DNA of 7,889 nucleotides from Halobacteriales archaeon. GTDB lineage: Archaea > Halobacteriota > Halobacteria > Halorutilales > JAHENH01. Positions 1 through 7,715 of the stretch are shown in pieces (the first letter of the stretch is position 1; each line of letters starts with the position of its first letter). The stretch lies in assembly GCA_018609935.1 (NCBI GenBank), contig JAHENH010000161.1:1-7889 (forward strand), in the 5' to 3' direction. The position numbers and the translations under genes were made by a program. The notes under the pieces are model-generated. The model ran no database searches. It saw only the letters and a list, made by a program, of their open reading frames with translations, and was not told where the DNA came from.

Positions 1-1910
1 AAGAGCATTTGGGTTATAGTGTATTTTAGCCCGGATATAGGTTCACTCATTGACATTTCCCCTGCTAGTAAGCCACTAAATAGCGCTTGTATTAAAGAAG
101 CATGAAAGAACAACAACCGAAACATATCTATTGATATTCCACCTCCTGCAAATAATCCAGTAGAACTTCCTCCACTACCTGAACTTCTCGCTTCTGCTAG
201 GTTAGGTAGGAAAAAACCTGTTAGTACAGCCATCACAAAAAGAAAGACTAGGAAGCTAACAAGTATTATTATAACATAGACAAATGTTTCACTAAATCTA
301 TCTCTTTCCAGTTGGTATGTTTTCTCTGCGTCTTGTGCTGCTACATCTATTATTTCTCCTATATCACCGGTAACTCTGTTGGCCTCTGCTAAAAGCTTCA
401 TTGTTCTAGTTATTCTTGGTATTTTTAGACGGTTGGCCATGTTTCTTAGTGCTCTCGATAGATCTCCGTGCCACATTACTTCATTAGATACATAACTAAT
501 TTGTTTTGAAAGTATTCCTGTTGTTTCTTCTGCAACCATTGAAAGCCCTTCATATAGAGTGACACCCATTTCGTTAGCTCCTTTTACATTTTTTAATATC
601 TCAGGAAGTTGTTTCGCTGTTTTTTTCCATCTTCTAATTTTTCTTTCATGAAAAAAAGAAAGTGGAACAATAACTATAAATAAAGGAATAGCTACAAGAA
701 ATGTTGTTGTCCAAGTTGGTCTTTTTTCAAAACTAGTAATACTTAAATCAGCAACTCCGTAAAAAACAAAACCAATAAAAACCAAGATCGCAAGAGGTAC
801 AGAGATATATAGAGAAAGTATCGGTTTTTCCCTTATTTCCTTAATTTTATCAAGAAATCTCTGAATTTTAGTTCTTCTTTCTGTCAAATGTTTTCGAAAT
901 TGTTCCTGTTGTTCCGTCATCGACATAGTTTCAGTTGCTGATTCCCTTTCGACCATTATAGTATCTATTAACACAAGAAAAAACAAACTAGATAAGGGAA
1001 TACCTATATATATTATTAAAGCAAGCAACAAAAGTCCAGTATTCTCTATAGATATTATAATAGTCTGGATTATTATGATGAATAAAGGACCCGCTATTAA
1101 TAATGTGACATATGATTCAGATATAACCTCTAAAGTTTCTAATAGGCTTTCTTGTTCTCTCCTTGCAGTTTCTAATGCAGACCTGCTTCTATTCCATAAA
1201 AACTCCTCCATATTGCCACCTGATTCTAATACATTAAGTAGATGGTCTAGAAAAGAAGAAAAGTCATCACTTGGACTATTTGAGCTTGCTTTTCTTAAAG
1301 CTGATGTTACATCCCTACCAAAATATTCCATCTCTATTCTTATATAGTTAAACTCTCCTGCTAACTGTCCGTATGCATCTGGAGCTTCAGATAAGGTTTT
1401 TATTATACTAGGCATACTCATCCCTCCACTAGAAAGAGCATACATGAACGTTATTCCATGAGGTAAAGCAATATTTATTTTCCTTCTTCTTTCTGAAACA
1501 TAATAATTAGGTATATAATAGAGATATATTCCAGTTATAGATGCAAAAAGGACAAAAAATACAATAGATAAAAAAATACCCTGAAAAATCAATCTATTTT
1601 GTTCAATAAATGAACCAACACTAGAAGGAAGTGAAACAGAAAGACTAGGTAAAAAACTACCTAAAAGTACAGTAATCAAGACACCTATTAAAACACCAAT
1701 AAATCCTGAAATTAAGGACCAAAAAATAACTCGGGAAAGAAAAACATCATAGCTAACTCCTATTCTTGCCTGTCTAAGTTTTTTTATTAATTCAGAATAT
1801 TTATCCCTTTTATTTCTAAAAAACCTACCGAAAAAATTATAAGCTATTCTATCAGTTCTCTTTAAAGACTTTTTTAGGGTTGTAGGTTTATCTTTTTTAG
1901 TGTTAGACAT
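1..1910 (-). CDS. pilC: Type IV pilus platform protein, two T2SSF domains (PilC/TadC family), C-terminus cut by window edge
   Basis: My translation of the minus strand is open from ATG at 1910 to the left edge, giving 636 residues with no stop. The product should be the inner-membrane platform on which the pilus ATPase acts. Two T2SSF-type domains are visible, one at about residues 149-260 (motif SSGGMSMPSIIKTL) and one at about 435-545 (GANEMGVTLYEGL, then LLAEANRVTGDIGEII). Hydrophobic segments lie near 60-86, 107-131, 268-288, 292-316, 366-386, 402-418, 545-568 and 595-616. A Ser/Gly-rich loop (577-591) sits between the last two. The residues at the edge (SGLKYTITQML) look like the start of a final helix, so probably only a few tens of residues are missing. 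The start codon directly follows the TAA of the ATPase gene with no spacing, implying translational coupling. The double-domain layout matches haloarchaeal PilC as I know the family. Archaellum FlaJ/ArlJ is the main alternative, but no archaellum genes are seen. Confidence 0.9.
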   Translation of the reverse strand, partial: MSNTKKDKPTTLKKSLKRTDRIAYNFFGRFFRNKRDKYSELIKKLRQARIGVSYDVFLSRVIFWSLISGFIGVLIGVLITVLLGSFLPSLSVSLPSSVGSFIEQNRLIFQGIFLSIVFFVLFASITGIYLYYIPNYYVSERRRKINIALPHGITFMYALSSGGMSMPSIIKTLSEAPDAYGQLAGEFNYIRIEMEYFGRDVTSALRKASSNSPSDDFSSFLDHLLNVLESGGNMEEFLWNRSRSALETARREQESLLETLEVISESYVTLLIAGPLFIIIIQTIIISIENTGLLLLALIIYIGIPLSSLFFLVLIDTIMVERESATETMSMTEQQEQFRKHLTERRTKIQRFLDKIKEIREKPILSLYISVPLAILVFIGFVFYGVADLSITSFEKRPTWTTTFLVAIPLFIVIVPLSFFHERKIRRWKKTAKQLPEILKNVKGANEMGVTLYEGLSMVAEETTGILSKQISYVSNEVMWHGDLSRALRNMANRLKIPRITRTMKLLAEANRVTGDIGEIIDVAAQDAEKTYQLERDRFSETFVYVIIILVSFLVFLFVMAVLTGFFLPNLAEARSSGSGGSSTGLFAGGGISIDMFRLLFFHASLIQALFSGLLAGEMSMSEPISGLKYTITQML

Positions 1911-3869
1911 TTAGTTTTCTAATCTATATATTGCCCTTTTGTCTAATGTTCCAGTTCTTATTTTATCAAGAACTTTACTCTTATTCCTCATAAATGACTG
2001 AATAACCTTTGTACTATGATCCCAACTAGTTATATCTTCTTCTAATAAATATTCTAACAGTTCCTGTCTATGATCTAGTTCTTTTTGAAGCTTCTCTGAT
2101 GACCATCCATTAGATCTCCTTAGCTCTTCTAAAACCGTTGAATTACCAACCTTCTGAAATGTATCATCTGTAGATTCCCACCTAAATACAGTATCTGTTC
2201 TAATATTTCCACTTCTAGGATCAACACCTAATATCTCAGATATAGTATGGCTTCTTCTAACTCTTTTATTACCCATAGGAACTTGGACTTGCACACTAAC
2301 TATATCTAGCGCTTCAATCATTGCACGTGGAACATCTATTGGAGGATTGGTAAGTCTATGTATAGCAGATTCAACAGAATCAGCATGTAATGTAGAATAA
2401 CATGTATGACCTGTACTCATAGCCTGAAAAAGTGTAGTTGCTTCTTTACCCCTTACTTCTCCAACCAAAATATATTCAGGTCTCTGACGTAGCGCAGAAG
2501 TAAGTAACTGAAACATATCTATCTTACCTCTTTCATCCCCTCCAATGGGTTCCCTTGTAACAGAAGGAATCCAATTTTCATTCCGAATAGCAAGCTCTCT
2601 TGTATCTTCTATAGAAGAAACTTTACTACCAGGAGGTATAAAAACAGAAATAGCATTCATACTAGTGGTCTTTCCGCTACCAGTACCTCCAGCAAAAATC
2701 AAAGACATGTTGTTTTCAATACAAAGCCATAGATAAGCCATCTGCTCAGTAGAAAACGTATGGGTATCTACAAGTCTTATTGGAGAGAAAGGTTCCTCAC
2801 CATATTTCCTAATTGTAAAAGAAGACCCTCTAGATGTTACTTCTCTCCCTAGAGAAAGCTGTACTCTATATCCTTGAGGGAGAGAAGCATCCACAAGTGG
2901 TTCTGAAACACTTATATGTTTTTCACCTTTCTGTGCGAGTTTTATTATAAAATTATTCAATTCTCTTTCAGGAACCGTTATATTTGACCTTAAATTAGAA
3001 TAATCTTGATGATATACAAATATCGGTGAATTAGGAGCATTACAAGAAATATCCTCAATATAAGGATCTCTAATAATAGGATCTATTTTTTCATAGCCAA
3101 CATAATCTCTTTTCAAATAATATAGAATTTTATACCTTGAATCAGGATCAATATTTATATTATATATATCAAGTAGAGTATAGAAATTATCCTCAAGCAC
3201 CTTTTCTTTAGCACTATCAGAGTCTTCTATTTTTTCACGCATCAAAGTATCAATTAAACGTGTTTCTAATTCATTTCTAATTTCCACCTCAGATTCATTC
3301 AACTTCGGCTCAACTACTCTATACAAATATTGTTCATTTTCTTCATTATATAAAATAGCCACAAAAGAATAAGGCTCATTAACCCAATACCTATCCCGTT
3401 CTTCAAATCCCTCCAAACTCTCCAAATGAGCCACGCCTTCTTTGGAAGATCTAACAAATTCTCCAAGATCTTCTGTAACTGAACCAACATCCACTTTACT
3501 TATAGAACCAAAATCCGAAGATCTATCCTCAATTTTTTCTGCAAGGTTTTCAAGATTAAACTCACCATCTACATCCAAATCCTCTTCCCTACCATCACCT
3601 ACTTCTTTATTAAAACCAGTTAATTTATTTTTACCTCCTTTTTTGGCACTATCTTTGTTTGAAATATCAACGTCTTCTAGATTTTTAGGTTCATCCTTTT
3701 CAATTTTTTCTGCAAGGTTTTCAAGATTAAACTCACCATCTACATCCAAATCCTTTTTTTCACTATCTAAATCTCGAATGTGTTCTTCATCCTTTTTTTT
3801 CTTTTTGTAAAAGGATTTAATTTTTTCTAAAATAGATTTATTTTCTTTATCAGGTGATTCCTTATCCAT
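1911..3869 (-). CDS. pilB: Type IV pilus assembly / secretion ATPase, PilB/TadA (GspE-VirB11) family
   Basis: This 652-residue cytoplasmic hexameric ATPase should power pilin assembly by acting on the adjacent platform protein. The catalytic half is intact: Walker A GGTGSGKT (394-401), Asp box SIEDTREL (419-426), Walker B ILVGEVRG (467-474, Glu471) and His box TGHTCYSTLHAD (486-497). The upstream region with DPYIEDISCNAPNSPIFVYH (268-287) is the archaeal N-terminal domain that packs on the ATPase core. The first ~160 residues are a charged, probably disordered linker: a Lys run (22-26), then two identical DLDVDGEFNLENLAEKIE units at 40-57 and 97-114. The C-terminal tail (about 545-652) has the ISEILGVDPRSGNI segment seen in haloarchaeal PilB-type ATPases. 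The gene abuts pilC and follows a 220-bp gap containing a TATA-like box. An ArlI/FlaI role is less likely given the linker and C-terminal tail. Confidence 0.93.
   Translation of the reverse strand: MDKESPDKENKSILEKIKSFYKKKKKDEEHIRDLDSEKKDLDVDGEFNLENLAEKIEKDEPKNLEDVDISNKDSAKKGGKNKLTGFNKEVGDGREEDLDVDGEFNLENLAEKIEDRSSDFGSISKVDVGSVTEDLGEFVRSSKEGVAHLESLEGFEERDRYWVNEPYSFVAILYNEENEQYLYRVVEPKLNESEVEIRNELETRLIDTLMREKIEDSDSAKEKVLEDNFYTLLDIYNINIDPDSRYKILYYLKRDYVGYEKIDPIIRDPYIEDISCNAPNSPIFVYHQDYSNLRSNITVPERELNNFIIKLAQKGEKHISVSEPLVDASLPQGYRVQLSLGREVTSRGSSFTIRKYGEEPFSPIRLVDTHTFSTEQMAYLWLCIENNMSLIFAGGTGSGKTTSMNAISVFIPPGSKVSSIEDTRELAIRNENWIPSVTREPIGGDERGKIDMFQLLTSALRQRPEYILVGEVRGKEATTLFQAMSTGHTCYSTLHADSVESAIHRLTNPPIDVPRAMIEALDIVSVQVQVPMGNKRVRRSHTISEILGVDPRSGNIRTDTVFRWESTDDTFQKVGNSTVLEELRRSNGWSSEKLQKELDHRQELLEYLLEEDITSWDHSTKVIQSFMRNKSKVLDKIRTGTLDKRAIYRLEN
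3529..3754. repeat. Exact 55-bp direct repeat inside pilB (3529-3583 and 3700-3754)
   Basis: The two 55-base copies are identical by direct comparison and mismatch at both flanking bases (3528/3699 and 3584/3755). They are offset by 171 bases, exactly 57 codons, so the frame is kept. Each encodes DLDVDGEFNLENLAEKIE in the acidic N-terminal linker of the ATPase. The 116 bases between copies are not repeated. This looks like a tandem duplication of a 57-codon unit whose intervening part has diverged, or a conserved short motif kept identical by recombination. Confidence 0.95.
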
Positions 3870-3908
3870 TTTTAGATTTCTTTGTTTTTAAAAACCGAAC
3901 ACAAAATC

Positions 3909-3920
3909 GATATATTTTTT
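3909..3920 (-). promoter_or_regulatory. Candidate TATA box for pilB-pilC
   Basis: On the minus strand the sequence reads AAAAAATATATC. Its centre is about 45 bases upstream of the pilB ATG (3869), so a start site 25-27 bases downstream would give an mRNA leader of about 18 bases. There is no Shine-Dalgarno sequence before the ATG. The AT-rich background makes chance matches common. Confidence 0.35.
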
Positions 3921-3963
3921 AGAAACATAAAGTAAATATTTTTTCTTTAATTGTATTCGCTTC

Positions 3964-3988
3964 TATACACATATATTTTTTGTGTATA
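3964..3988. repeat. 8-bp inverted repeat TATACACA / TGTGTATA upstream of pilB
   Basis: The arms 3964-3971 and 3981-3988 are perfectly complementary around a 9-base AT-rich spacer. The dyad lies about 45-75 bases upstream of the candidate pilB TATA box, a plausible place for a transcription factor. It could equally be an RNA hairpin in the minD trailer, but no U-run follows it on the minus strand, so a terminator reading there is weak. On the plus strand it is followed by a T-run, but no plus-strand gene precedes it. Confidence 0.45.
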
Positions 3989-4058
3989 TTTTTTTAATAG
4001 TCTTAACATATAAAAGATATACTAAAAATAATTAAATATTATAATTTTTTATAGATAA

Positions 4059-4072
4059 GATATAACTATATC
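4059..4072. repeat. Short inverted repeat just downstream of minD
   Basis: GATATA and TATATC are complementary 6-bp arms separated by two bases, starting about 18 bases beyond the minD stop. The composition is entirely AT-rich, and the two-base gap is too tight for an RNA hairpin. It could be a protein-binding dyad or chance. Confidence 0.2.
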
Positions 4073-4089
4073 ATTGTATTCTAAAAAAA

Positions 4090-4797
4090 TCATATTTTTG
4101 ACTTTATATTATTAGCCATTCTTTTATACATTTGTGATGCAAGTGAATCAACATTATAATCAATAACAGAATGTCTATATGAATTAGCTTTTTTTATATT
4201 TTCATCTTCTGGTATTCTAGCTAATACATCGGTCCCTAAGATTTTTTCAATCCTAGATACATTTACCTCCGTTTCCTCGTCTCCTTCAACTCTATTAACA
4301 ATACAACCAATTATATCAGACCCAACATTTTTAGCTATATTTTGGGTTTTTAACCCACTCAATATACCCGAATTAGTTGGGGTAGTTATTGAAAAAACAC
4401 TATCTACTATATCTAAAAAATATAATAATTCTCTATTTAGGCCCGGAGGTGTATCTATAATAATACAATCAGAAGTCTCTTCCAGATATGCTAGATCCAA
4501 ATTTTCTGGATTTGCTTTACTATATGATTTAAGTTCCAAAGATGAAGGAACAACCTTAAAACCCTCTTTTTCATATGTTGCCTCATTAATATTAACTTCA
4601 TCTGCCAAAACATCATGTAGAGTAAATGGTTTATCTTCAAGACCTAATAAAAGACCAAGATCACCCATCCCAATATTTCCATCAATCAAAACTACATCTA
4701 CATCTTCTTCCGATAAAGCTGCTCCTAAATTAATAGCTGAAATAGTTTTTCCAACTCCTCCCTTCCCGGAAGCAATAGCAAATTTCTTACAAGTCAT
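4090..4797 (-). CDS. minD: MinD/ParA-family ATPase next to pilus motor genes
   Basis: This 235-residue P-loop ATPase is of the MinD/ParA (SIMIBI) class. It shows the deviant Walker A GKGGVGKT (11-18) with signature Lys12, the A' segment VLIDGNIGMGDLG (36-48) and Walker B IIIDTPPGL (112-120). The segment LHDVLADEVNINEATYE resembles archaeal MinD homologues. The Asp expected at position 41 (DxD in E. coli MinD, where Asp40 is needed for hydrolysis) is Asn here. The C-terminus (about 221-235, SQMYKRMANNIKSKI) is a Lys-rich helix, but a MinD-type membrane anchor is not evident. It lies 54 bases after the response regulator and upstream of pilB. In Haloferax volcanii MinD4 places pili, archaella and chemosensory arrays at the poles, and TadZ/CpaE does a similar job in Tad systems, so a pilus-positioning role is a reasonable inference. 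A chromosome-partition role is less likely without a ParB. Confidence 0.88.
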   Translation of the reverse strand: MTCKKFAIASGKGGVGKTISAINLGAALSEEDVDVVLIDGNIGMGDLGLLLGLEDKPFTLHDVLADEVNINEATYEKEGFKVVPSSLELKSYSKANPENLDLAYLEETSDCIIIDTPPGLNRELLYFLDIVDSVFSITTPTNSGILSGLKTQNIAKNVGSDIIGCIVNRVEGDEETEVNVSRIEKILGTDVLARIPEDENIKKANSYRHSVIDYNVDSLASQMYKRMANNIKSKI

Positions 4798-4823
4798 TTC
4801 TATTTTGTACAGAATAATAGACT

Positions 4824-4834
4824 ATTTTATAAAT
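4824..4834 (-). promoter_or_regulatory. Candidate TATA box giving a leaderless or near-leaderless minD mRNA
   Basis: The minus strand reads ATTTATAAAAT, centred about 32 bases before the minD ATG. With the usual archaeal TATA-to-start distance, transcription would begin only a few bases before the ATG. No Shine-Dalgarno sequence is present, which agrees with leaderless initiation. It lies in the 54-base gap after the response regulator gene. Confidence 0.4.
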
Positions 4835-4851
4835 AAAAAACATTTTTTTAA

Positions 4852-5400
4852 TCACATCTCTTCAAGAGCATCTTGTATATTTTCTTCATCTATATCTTCA
4901 AAAGAAACAGATTCGCTTTCTTCTTCTAATATTTCCCTAAGTTTAGAAAATTCTTCACTAGATTCTAGTTCTTCCTTTGATTTTTCTTTTCTTAAAGTTT
5001 CAAATTTCTCTCGAAGTGAATATAGTTCACGTTCTTCATCTGTTAATTTAGTTCTTTCTATCATTTTTTGAACAACTTCATGTAGTTCACCACCAGAAAC
5101 CGGTTTTATAACATAACCATCAAAATCCATAGACACAACATCAAAATCAGGTTCAACAGCTGTCACCATTACTATACTACACTTATATCCCAACCTCTCT
5201 CTAATTTCTTCTAGAACATCATCACCAGATATTTGAGGCATTTTTCTATCCAGGAGTACAACATCTACATCATCATTTATTTTTTCTAGAGCTTCTTGAC
5301 CATTATATGCAACTAAAGTTTCGAATTGATCACTTAGAGATCTAGCATAAGCATCAGCAAGATCTTTTTCATCATCTACCACTAAAACAATCCCCGTCAT
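4852..5400 (-). CDS. Response regulator: receiver domain plus HalX-like domain
   Basis: This 182-residue cytoplasmic protein begins with a complete receiver domain (about 3-112): acidic pair Asp9-Asp10, phosphoacceptor Asp51 in VVLLDRKMP, Thr80 in VMVTA and the KP pair Lys99-Pro100. The following segment (about 113-158, ERTKLTDEERELYSLREKFE onward through SSEEFSKLREIL) matches the HalX domain as I know it from haloarchaeal regulators. It is a helical region rich in Lys and Glu and carries no recognisable DNA-binding fold. A very acidic tail (159-182) ends at a TGA stop. HalX regulators lack a clear output domain, so signalling by protein-protein contact is plausible. It is the first gene of the leftward series regulator-minD-pilB-pilC, with a TATA-like box upstream, and no sensor kinase is seen nearby. 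Confidence 0.9.
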   Translation of the reverse strand: MTGIVLVVDDEKDLADAYARSLSDQFETLVAYNGQEALEKINDDVDVVLLDRKMPQISGDDVLEEIRERLGYKCSIVMVTAVEPDFDVVSMDFDGYVIKPVSGGELHEVVQKMIERTKLTDEERELYSLREKFETLRKEKSKEELESSEEFSKLREILEEESESVSFEDIDEENIQDALEEM

Positions 5401-5676: not shown

Positions 5677-5859
5677 ATGCCAATAAAACCATACTATATA
5701 AAGAAGGTAGGAAACGAATTAGTTGAGAGATATCCAGAAGTGTTTAGTTCAGACTTCCAGGAAAACAAACAAAGGGTAAAGAAATTAACTAATGTGAAAT
5801 CAAAAACAGTACGAAATAGAATAGCTGGATATATTACTAGACTAAAACAATCAAGCTAA
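5677..5859 (+). CDS. rps17e: Small-subunit ribosomal protein eS17 (S17e)
   Basis: This is a 60-residue basic protein of the 30S subunit, found in archaea and eukaryotes and absent from bacteria. The family pattern is clear: [16 protein letters not shown] near the N-terminus, then [18 protein letters not shown] and [12 protein letters not shown] at the C-terminus. Length is normal for archaeal eS17, which lacks the long eukaryotic tail. The ATG at 5677 is supported because the conserved segment begins within a few residues. No Shine-Dalgarno sequence precedes it. trpS starts one base after the TAA, so the two genes are probably co-transcribed. Confidence 0.96.
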
Positions 5860-5860
5860 A

Positions 5861-7309
5861 ATGGCTGAACTAGATCCATGGGGGTCTTCCTCTATAGATG
5901 ATTATTCTAGACTCTCAGAAGAATTCGGTATAAAAGAATTTTCTAAATCTATATTGAATTCATCTCAAAAAATTAAACCTATGGATCTAATGAGGCGAAA
6001 GATAATATTTGGTCACAGAGATTACGAAAATATATCCAAAGCAATAAGTAATAAAGATGATTTTGCTGCACTCTCTGGATTTATGCCTTCAGGTGAGCCA
6101 CATATAGGGAACATGATGGTTATGAATGAACTAATATGGCATCAAAAACAAGGTGCAGAAACACACTTTGTAATTGCAGACATGGAAGCAAAAGCAGCCA
6201 GAGGTATGACAGAAAAAGAATGTCAAAAATATGCAAAAAGCTATACAGCTTCTATGATAGCACTTGGATTCGACACAGAAAAAGGCCATATATATAAACA
6301 AAGCGAAAATAGAGAACTAAGAAAGCTTGCCTTTGAACTCTCCCAAGAAACTAATTTTAACGAACTAGAAGGAATATATGGATTTGACAAAGAAACAAGT
6401 ATTGGACATATAGAAAGTGTTTTAACACAAACTGCAGATATACTATATCCCCAACTTAAAAAACCTAAACCTACAGTTATACCTGTTGGAATAGACCAAG
6501 ACCCCCATATAAGACTTACAAGAGAACTAGCAAGAAGATCCAGATATTTCGGAGTCACAGAAGCATATGCAAGTTTTGAACTTAAACCAAAATGGAAACC
6601 AAAAGTAAAAGAAGCATTAAAAAAACTTGGTGATAAAACAGAATCTAGAAAAATAGCTGAACAACTAAAAGGAAAAGTAGAAAACAAACTAATCAAAACA
6701 CTGAAATCAGGAGGAAAAGAAAAACTAAAACATAGAATTAGAGTTATCTCAAGAAAGGCACCAAAAGAATCATTTAAAAAAATAAAAAAAACACTTAACG
6801 AAAAATATGAAATACAGGAATTCGAAAAGCATATAGATATATTCAATGCATCAAAACTAAAAATAGAAGAAATAGTTAGAGAAATAGAGATAAAAGAAGG
6901 AGGCCACGGATTTTATCCCCCTTCTTCTATATATCATCGTTTTATGACAGGATTAAAAGGAGGTAAAATGTCATCTAGTATCCCGAAAAGCCATATAGCT
7001 CTAACAGATAAACCACAAAAAGGACATGAAAAAGTAAAAGATGCAGAAACCGGAGGTAGAGAAACAGCCCAAAAACAAAGAGAACTAGGAGGTAAACCAG
7101 ACGAATGCCCAATATATGAACTATACGCATACACAGTAGCCAAAAATGATGAACACGCAAAAAAAGTATACAAAGAATGTAAATCAGGAGAAAGACTATG
7201 TGGAGAATGCAAACAAGAAGCAGCAGAACTAACTTCGCAATTCCTAAAAAAACACAACGAAGAAAGAAAAAAAGCAAAAGAAAAAATAGAAAAAGAAAAC
7301 ATAATATAA
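5861..7309 (+). CDS. trpS: Tryptophanyl-tRNA synthetase with long insertion and four-cysteine motif
   Basis: This class I synthetase charges tRNA-Trp with tryptophan in the cytoplasm. Over 482 residues it shows the HIGH-type motif PHIGN (80-84), GIDQDPH (210-216), typical of archaeal/eukaryotic TrpRS, and the KMSKS-type loop GGKMSSS (367-373). Many archaeal TrpRS are shorter; here about 100 extra residues (roughly 241-345), rich in Lys, lie before the PPSSIYHRFMTGLKGG segment. Haloarchaeal enzymes have a similar region as I recall. After KMSSS, Cys416, Cys440, Cys447 and Cys450 are spaced C-x23-C-x6-C-x2-C, nearly the C-x22-C-x6-C-x2-C iron-sulfur motif of Thermotoga maritima TrpRS. The Lys/Glu-rich tail (463-480) is probably helical. 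The start at 5861 is one base after rps17e and lacks a Shine-Dalgarno sequence. TyrRS is excluded by the overall motif set and the KMSSS context. Confidence 0.95.
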   Translation: MAELDPWGSSSIDDYSRLSEEFGIKEFSKSILNSSQKIKPMDLMRRKIIFGHRDYENISKAISNKDDFAALSGFMPSGEPHIGNMMVMNELIWHQKQGAETHFVIADMEAKAARGMTEKECQKYAKSYTASMIALGFDTEKGHIYKQSENRELRKLAFELSQETNFNELEGIYGFDKETSIGHIESVLTQTADILYPQLKKPKPTVIPVGIDQDPHIRLTRELARRSRYFGVTEAYASFELKPKWKPKVKEALKKLGDKTESRKIAEQLKGKVENKLIKTLKSGGKEKLKHRIRVISRKAPKESFKKIKKTLNEKYEIQEFEKHIDIFNASKLKIEEIVREIEIKEGGHGFYPPSSIYHRFMTGLKGGKMSSSIPKSHIALTDKPQKGHEKVKDAETGGRETAQKQRELGGKPDECPIYELYAYTVAKNDEHAKKVYKECKSGERLCGECKQEAAELTSQFLKKHNEERKKAKEKIEKENII

Positions 7310-7502: not shown

Positions 7503-7715
7503 TTAATTTCCTTTTTCTCTATCGTATTTTACTGTATTGTCCTTATTCGCAGCATCAGGACTAATCCACTTGCTTCTATCATAGTCGCAAGATGGAAGCA
7601 TTATCATTAATTCTCTTGTTAAATATTGTTCTGGCGACATATCAAAATCATCAGCTCGCTTTTCAACTACGGTTTCAGCTATCGGATCAGGAATTTCAAC
7701 TGTATATTCAGCCAT
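7503..7715 (-). CDS. Small protein of 70 residues, ribbon-helix-helix-like N-terminus, function unknown
   Basis: The frame runs from ATG at 7715 to TAA at 7503. Residues 3-8 (EYTVEI) could form the short strand, 10-22 the first helix and 27-40 (SPEQYLTRELMIML) the second, as in Arc/MetJ/CopG-type ribbon-helix-helix proteins. The family match is by pattern only. The second half (41-70) is polar, contains one Cys44 and a Trp50, and looks unstructured. The base composition is less AT-rich than the flanks, supporting a real gene. It is followed by the convergent end of trpS and lies downstream of another minus-strand gene after a 67-bp gap with TATA-like sequence. No toxin partner is seen, so an antitoxin role is not supported. 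It may instead be a small DNA-binding regulator or another small structural protein. Confidence 0.65.
   Translation of the reverse strand: MAEYTVEIPDPIAETVVEKRADDFDMSPEQYLTRELMIMLPSCDYDRSKWISPDAANKDNTVKYDREKGN

Follow-up and report, generated by a model that had tools for sequence, protein, structure and literature searches.

Whether a response regulator encoded directly beside a MinD ATPase feeds signals into a pilus motor, or has only come to lie next to it, is the question raised by a stretch of 7,889 nucleotides from a Halobacteriales archaeon (contig JAHENH010000161.1; this whole stretch is referred to below as the window). The first-pass annotation had read the four genes concerned as a possible split TadZ-like control module, TadZ/CpaE being the protein of bacterial Tad pili that joins a receiver and a MinD-type ATPase in one chain.

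Four consecutive genes encode a response regulator, a MinD ATPase and a pilus motor

The open reading frames together with their domain matches confirmed that the genes for a receiver-HalX (REC-HalX) protein, a MinD ATPase, PilB and PilC follow one another on the minus strand, in the order REC-HalX, 54 nt, MinD, 220 nt, PilB, 0 nt and PilC. All four run in one direction, as had been claimed; this shared direction does not imply a single transcript over the four genes, which is putative. The 54-nt gap between receiver and MinD contains one TATA-like box (4826-4833), but the 6 boxes of this kind in the window are about what chance predicts (4.64). Past a 276-nt gap from the REC-HalX gene begins an S17e-like gene (5677-5859, plus strand), followed by the gene for tryptophanyl-tRNA synthetase, TrpS (5861-7309, plus strand), and a small open reading frame of 70 aa with no Pfam match lies at 7503-7715 on the minus strand. 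When the window was scanned for tRNAs and Rfam families, neither was found. Its G+C content is 28-36%, against 55-59% in the corresponding loci of its relatives (the group of genomes G134, G460 and G528). TrpS was closest to that of G134 (61%), the next full-length matches reaching at most 57% and N-terminal partial matches up to 59%, and PilB was closest to that of G546 (57%), followed by G460, G528 and G134 (53-56%). The DNA thus probably belongs to an uncultured organism related to a deep halobacterial group.

The regulator (4852..5400, minus strand; 182 aa) has a receiver domain at about residues 5-110 and a HalX domain at residues 116-160, with Pfam scores of 66.0 bits for Response_reg (cut-off 30.2) and 28.4 bits for HalX (cut-off 23.2). 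Asp10, Asp51, Thr80 and Lys99 are invariant in an alignment of 58 rows (A5) and Asp9 is found in at least 90% of these rows; therefore, the five phosphorylation residues named at first pass are indeed present. One close relative of the receiver, P0002, is 69% identical to it. With both Pfam cut-offs passed and these residues kept, the protein is a REC-HalX response regulator, and its domain order is that of the REC-HalX regulators of Halobacteria surveyed by Galperin et al. (2018, PMC5847659). In the part of that survey available to us, HalX is a common haloarchaeal output domain of more than 550 proteins with no documented function. Modelled alone, the protein gave a pLDDT of 88.0 and a pTM of 0.83, with HalX predicted as a hairpin of helices followed by a disordered tail. 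A fold search with HalX returned lists filled by receiver domains and no match for HalX itself.

PilB (1911..3869, minus strand; 652 aa) carries a long N-terminal linker and matches T2SSE (117.1 bits, cut-off 24.9), PilB3_C (36, cut-off 27) and PilB3_N, the last of these borderline, exactly at its cut-off of 27. These three matches place it among the PilB3-like pilus assembly ATPases of the PilB/TadA type. The PilC/TadC-type platform protein (3..1910, minus strand), of which 636 aa lie within the window and which is open at the window end, matches T2SSF in two stretches (105.1 bits, cut-off 25.2). Within the PilB linker region (3529..3757, minus strand), a 58-nt direct repeat (copies 3529-3586 and 3700-3757) encodes an 18-aa acidic segment twice. 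The two copies are identical at 57 of 58 bases, so the repeat looks recent. The segment was compared with close PilB linkers as a candidate for a conserved docking motif, but conservation could not be demonstrated. Linker ends could be defined in 11 of the 28 relatives tried (P0243-P0270). For three near-identical rows (P0243-P0245), 4, 8 and 9 of 1000 shuffles did as well or better; for the other eight linkers, 104 to 948 of 1000 did.

MinD, PilB and PilC form an inherited linkage

We examined the gene order in the five nearest genomes and observed that minD adjoins pilB-pilC in four of them (G134, G460, G528 and G548); in the fifth, G546, the assembly breaks at this point, with MinD at the end of one contig and PilB at the end of another. 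G134, G460 and G528 each carry their best match to the window MinD upstream of their best PilB match and in the same orientation, with one other gene in between in G134. In G548, MinD is beside PilB on a short contig. PilC is followed by a gene for a DUF7125 protein (KaiC-like; named by Pfam in two loci) and, as judged by eye, a thioredoxin reductase-like gene, and both occur in all four PilC loci that reach so far.

To look beyond these genomes, the MinD of G460 was searched against 294 genomes of the phylum, which gave many full-length matches. We took 40 loci at 48-58% identity from 29 genomes, none of them within the 292-genome draw of the halobacterial class, and kept roughly 8 kb of flanking sequence in both directions wherever the contig was long enough. 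They comprise the best 34 listed matches after G134 and six from further down the list, with three second copies, G141, G238 and G173, skipped; the 40 include sister species and are not independent. PilB and PilC were both present in 20 of the 40 neighbourhoods. Roadblock/LC7 was found in 35, a receiver domain in 18 (with MetOD2 in 12 of the 18), and in 31 a protein family that we call upDUF, which also has a member close to MinD in each of the five halobacterial loci (the 40 being L278-L317). Within the 40 loci, Pfam by itself recognised a pair of receivers, one further receiver and three LC7 genes. Eight of the loci (L279, L281, L285, L289, L301, L302, L307 and L312) contributed to the home-made models of upDUF, LC7 and MetOD2 and so match by construction, and two of the five halobacterial loci likewise contributed to the upDUF model. 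Members of upDUF include L047:6526-7437, L048:5651-6502 and L049:5249-6109; none of five members scanned had a Pfam match above cut-off. As controls, 20 regions of equal size were taken at round coordinates, one each in 20 of the 29 genomes, and none held PilB, PilC, LC7, upDUF or a receiver.

The linkage has limits. In the rest of the class draw, none of 40 neighbourhoods of high-ranking PilB matches held a MinD match (these being the matches after the clade, without the second copies of G134 and G231 and without G120). Three Archaeoglobaceae PilB loci (L001-L003) all hold PilB and PilC, but neither MinD nor a receiver was matched within 10 kb of them, and the three genomes gave no match to REC-HalX.

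The above results show that MinD-PilB-PilC is an inherited linkage that extends well beyond this genome, so the first-pass annotation's concern that the neighbourhood might be confined to one genome does not apply to the MinD-PilB part of it. MinD very probably serves PilB and PilC in some way. MinD genes in archaeal pilus loci had already been reported by Makarova et al. (2016, PMC4858521), together with LC7, and our MinD-PilB survey therefore largely confirms known work.

The MinD of the window lacks the C-terminal helix of its relatives

The MinD ATPase (4090..4797, minus strand; 235 aa) scored 213.8 bits with the NCBIfam profile TIGR01969 minD_arch (cut-off 201.75), which assigns it to archaeal MinD, and its best sequence match in the PDB was the MinD of A. 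fulgidus (1hyq, 143 bits). The deviant Walker A motif with its signature lysine is intact (SGKGGVGKT, residues 10-18) and is invariant in alignment A1 bar one position.

In the same alignment, the window MinD and one relative, P0122, lack the C-terminal amphipathic extension. A short amphipathic-looking C-terminal helix was seen by eye in all 40 fetched MinDs and in the five halobacterial ones, these 45 being mostly of a GF-(I/V)-D-R type. A frameshift was considered as the cause of its loss and rejected: the 220-nt A+T-rich gap that precedes pilB (3870..4089, minus strand) encodes the extension in none of three frames, and P0122 (54% identity) stops at about the same place. A MinD without this helix might attach only weakly to membranes when no partner anchors it, and we infer that a partner may have to tether the window MinD; REC-HalX and the PilB linker would be the candidates. 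Also noted was a set of haloarchaeal MinDs of about 530-660 aa (L093-L099, L101, L108, L109, L111-L113, L117 and L119), which are among the next-best class matches of the window MinD. They have a long acidic C-terminal part and end in a short helix-like tail.

Two trees were made from chosen rows cut to about 262-275 residues, one with 67 rows and the other with 61. In both, the window MinD and P0122 sit on a long branch that is not placed with support inside the group of G134, G460, G528, G546 and G548; measured by path length, the window MinD is nearest to P0122 and next to the pilus-linked halobacterial MinDs. The 61-row tree joined the window MinD to P0124 (Methanothermococcus) and P0132 (Methanotorris) at 96/82, a placement flagged as a possible long-branch artefact. 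Because the branch is long and the placement doubtful, orthology with the pilus-linked MinDs rests more on gene order than on the tree.

REC-MetOD2 receivers are found repeatedly near related MinDs

We then asked how often a REC-HalX gene lies beside such a MinD. We sampled 40 REC-HalX neighbourhoods from the class, taking 34 from the top 36 matches and six more from G134, G460 and G528. None holds a MinD of the window's kind, L200 having one weak match of 49 residues, whereas the REC-HalX gene of the window adjoins minD. In G134, G460 and G528, the REC-HalX genes are on other contigs or far from minD. One neighbourhood of the 40, L191 (G341), holds PilB and PilC; there, REC-HalX is about 1.3 kb downstream of the PilB-PilC pair on the same strand, and the locus is without MinD. 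A separate observation concerns contigs C40 and C53 of G528, which gave many receiver-like matches in two separate pieces per open frame, possibly diverged regulators with insertions.

Among the 40 related-MinD loci, the picture was different for another class of regulator. A REC-MetOD2 protein lies near MinD in 12 (L285, L288, L289, L296, L299, L300, L302-L305, L313 and L314), and in all 12 its gene adjoins that of LC7 and points away from the MinD gene; the receiver gene of the window is in tandem with minD. The window receiver has no MetOD2 match, either in Pfam or with the home-made model, and is not a REC-MetOD2 protein; the window also has no LC7 match. HalX and MetOD2 could not be treated as one domain, as hhalign gave a probability of 0.8% and no homology at this sensitivity (for the input, the domain could be excised from 56 of the 58 HalX rows and from 11 of the 14 MetOD2 proteins). 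Galperin et al. (2018, PMC5847659), in the part available, place MetOD2 in Methanocellales and Methanomicrobiales, a distribution that hints at the affiliation of the genomes with REC-MetOD2 loci. Seven receiver-linked loci, those first noticed, fall in three places in the MinD tree.

From these counts, a pairing of receiver with MinD recurs in archaea with unrelated output domains, and LC7, REC-MetOD2 and MinD make up a candidate cluster for archaeal polarity. Among the 40 loci, no member is shared between the 12 with a linked receiver and the 20 with linked PilB, and nine genomes have one of each. Since these MinDs are different genes, the receiver-linked MinD of those organisms may serve a target other than the pilus. 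Among the loci examined, the window alone has receiver, MinD and PilB together. The survey of adjacency proposed at first pass thus came out in two halves: MinD beside pilB and pilC is conserved, and REC-HalX beside MinD occurs only here (0/40 elsewhere). A literature search, covering few subscription journals, found no paper that pairs a HalX or MetOD2 regulator with MinD.

REC-HalX as a possible signal input to MinD or the motor

Receiver and MinD are encoded in the same frame 54 nt apart (4798..4851, minus strand), so they could be folded as one chain, with the two stops between the genes read as residues. The alignment for this fold (A4) contained 30 receiver and 50 MinD relatives in unpaired rows. 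Each part was confidently modelled, the linker was not, and the pTM was 0.60 with no confident docking. A confident receiver-HalX:MinD interface, named at first pass as support for the idea, did not emerge, a negative that is weak because rows were unpaired and a single chain was used. Fold matches of this chain (50 rows listed) were MinD/ParA-type and related P-loop ATPases, in alignments of at most 270 columns.

The reading that we tentatively prefer, though at somewhat less than an even footing, is that of an inherited MinD-PilB-PilC locus in which REC-HalX provides a signal input to MinD or the motor. Here, a REC-HalX response regulator would have come to adjoin MinD in an inherited archaeal pilus-motor locus. 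As an ATPase, MinD would position or license the PilB/PilC machine, and the receiver would supply its signal input. Phosphorylation of Asp51 would change the contacts of the HalX helical hairpin with MinD or the PilB linker, and the changed contacts would alter where or whether the pilus motor works. REC-HalX would thus act on MinD or the motor through protein contact, with pilus placement or activity as the output. The conserved MinD-PilB linkage, the retained receiver residues and the occurrence of REC-MetOD2 beside MinD (12/40 versus 0/20 controls) argue for this; the lack of a second genome with REC-HalX beside MinD (0/40), the disjoint receiver-linked and PilB-linked MinDs, the pTM of the one-chain fold and the long-branch MinD argue against it.

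The strongest competitor, which we regard as unlikely though not markedly so, is that REC-HalX is a chance neighbour, separately transcribed and with other duties, which a rearrangement set beside an old MinD-PilB-PilC locus. This would fit the absence of this kind of MinD from the 40 REC-HalX neighbourhoods and the single one with PilB/PilC, and also the distant REC-HalX genes of G134, G460 and G528. Chance does not readily account for receivers of another type recurring beside related MinDs but in none of the controls, nor for the tandem placement of REC-HalX and minD with a gap of only 54 nt.

It is improbable that REC-HalX instead controls the expression of minD and the pilus genes, with HalX acting on DNA or through another factor. 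Galperin et al. (2018, PMC5847659) considered that HalX might form a helix-turn-helix structure, and a Haloferax multidomain protein with HalX and a Bat-type HTH affects motility according to the available part of PMC7824242; however, DNA binding of HalX is undocumented in the available part of the former survey, and the helix hairpin and disordered tail modelled for the window HalX neither show nor exclude it. Least probable is a general MinD that serves cell shape or archaella besides or instead of pili and whose position next to pilB is a relic of history. No other strong MinD match occurs in G134, G460, G528, G546 and G548 (the rest have E 1.7e-10 or weaker), and in Haloferax archaella and chemosensory arrays are the targets of MinD2 and MinD4 (PMC11588486, in part), but the PilB/PilC linkage is kept in 20 of the 40 loci from the 29 genomes sampled and in the nearest halobacterial genomes.

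The most economical reading is that the inherited MinD-PilB-PilC locus gained a receiver in this lineage, in parallel to archaea in which a related MinD is paired with another receiver. Were MinD or the pilus motor the target of a HalX regulator, HalX would gain a testable output. That receivers with an output domain unrelated to HalX lie near such MinDs also points to control of archaeal polarity and pili by signalling, a subject that has had little study.

Comparison with known systems

The closest bacterial comparison is TadZ/CpaE of Tad pili, which likewise brings a receiver and a deviant-Walker ParA/MinD-type ATPase together with a TadA-type motor and a TadC-type platform; in Caulobacter, the receiver-ATPase fusion CpaE has been modelled around the motor CpaF (both from the available part of PMC13170226). 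In the same source, TadZ/CpaE is one fused protein whose receiver is atypical and whose C-terminus forms an amphipathic helix, whereas the window has two proteins, a receiver that keeps its phosphorylation residues and a MinD without the helix. The deviant Walker A motif with lysine and the company of TadA-type motor and TadC-type platform genes agree with TadZ/CpaE. The fusion is absent, a stop codon and 54 nt separating the two genes, and so is the helix. Of TadZ/CpaE profiles, only CpaE_hom_Actino (the actinobacterial Ssd type) was listed, at 37.1 bits against a cut-off of 154.45, in a library that may leave out other CpaE profiles. As fusion, profile and C-terminal helix all fail, the receiver/MinD pair of the window is not a TadZ/CpaE. 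What stands of the split TadZ-like module is a separate receiver and MinD in a pilus locus; the profile and the helix do not bear it out, and that the pair works like a split TadZ is plausible but unproven.

A broader proposal would be that archaea have repeatedly built a two-protein counterpart of TadZ/CpaE from a pilus- or polarity-linked MinD and a free phosphorylatable receiver, with REC-MetOD2 and Roadblock/LC7 as its form in other genomes and REC-HalX as its form in the window, where receiver, MinD and motor are encoded together. The receiver, and not a membrane helix, would then tie MinD, and HalX would contact MinD or the motor. We consider this rather unlikely as a whole.

Among archaeal systems, Makarova et al. 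(2016, PMC4858521) described an ATPase of the FleN/MinD family (arCOG00589) in or near PilB/TadC loci, usually as a stand-alone gene in their clade 2 systems, along with Roadblock/LC7 (arCOG02603) in archaeal pilus loci, and proposed that MinD regulates archaeal type IV pili. The available part of that text nowhere uses the term "response regulator", and the window adds a REC-HalX regulator to the picture. MinD in pilus loci is already known, and what is unusual is REC-HalX beside MinD.

The MinD2 and MinD4 proteins of Haloferax (PMC11588486) are also MinD ATPases that affect the placement of surface machines in a halophilic archaeon. Their effects concern archaella, chemosensory arrays and cell shape, and the operon partner of MinD2 is HVO_0596; the word "receiver" does not appear in the available text. 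The first-pass annotation had credited MinD4 with effects on both pilus and archaellum position; this part of the source deals with archaella and chemosensory arrays, and nothing on pilus position was found in it.

In the polarity module of Myxococcus, the Roadblock protein MglB and the response regulator RomR control the polar pilus machinery, and the GTPase there is MglA, not MinD (PMC9481161, in the portion available). The neighbourhoods of LC7, REC-MetOD2 and MinD might act in a similar manner.
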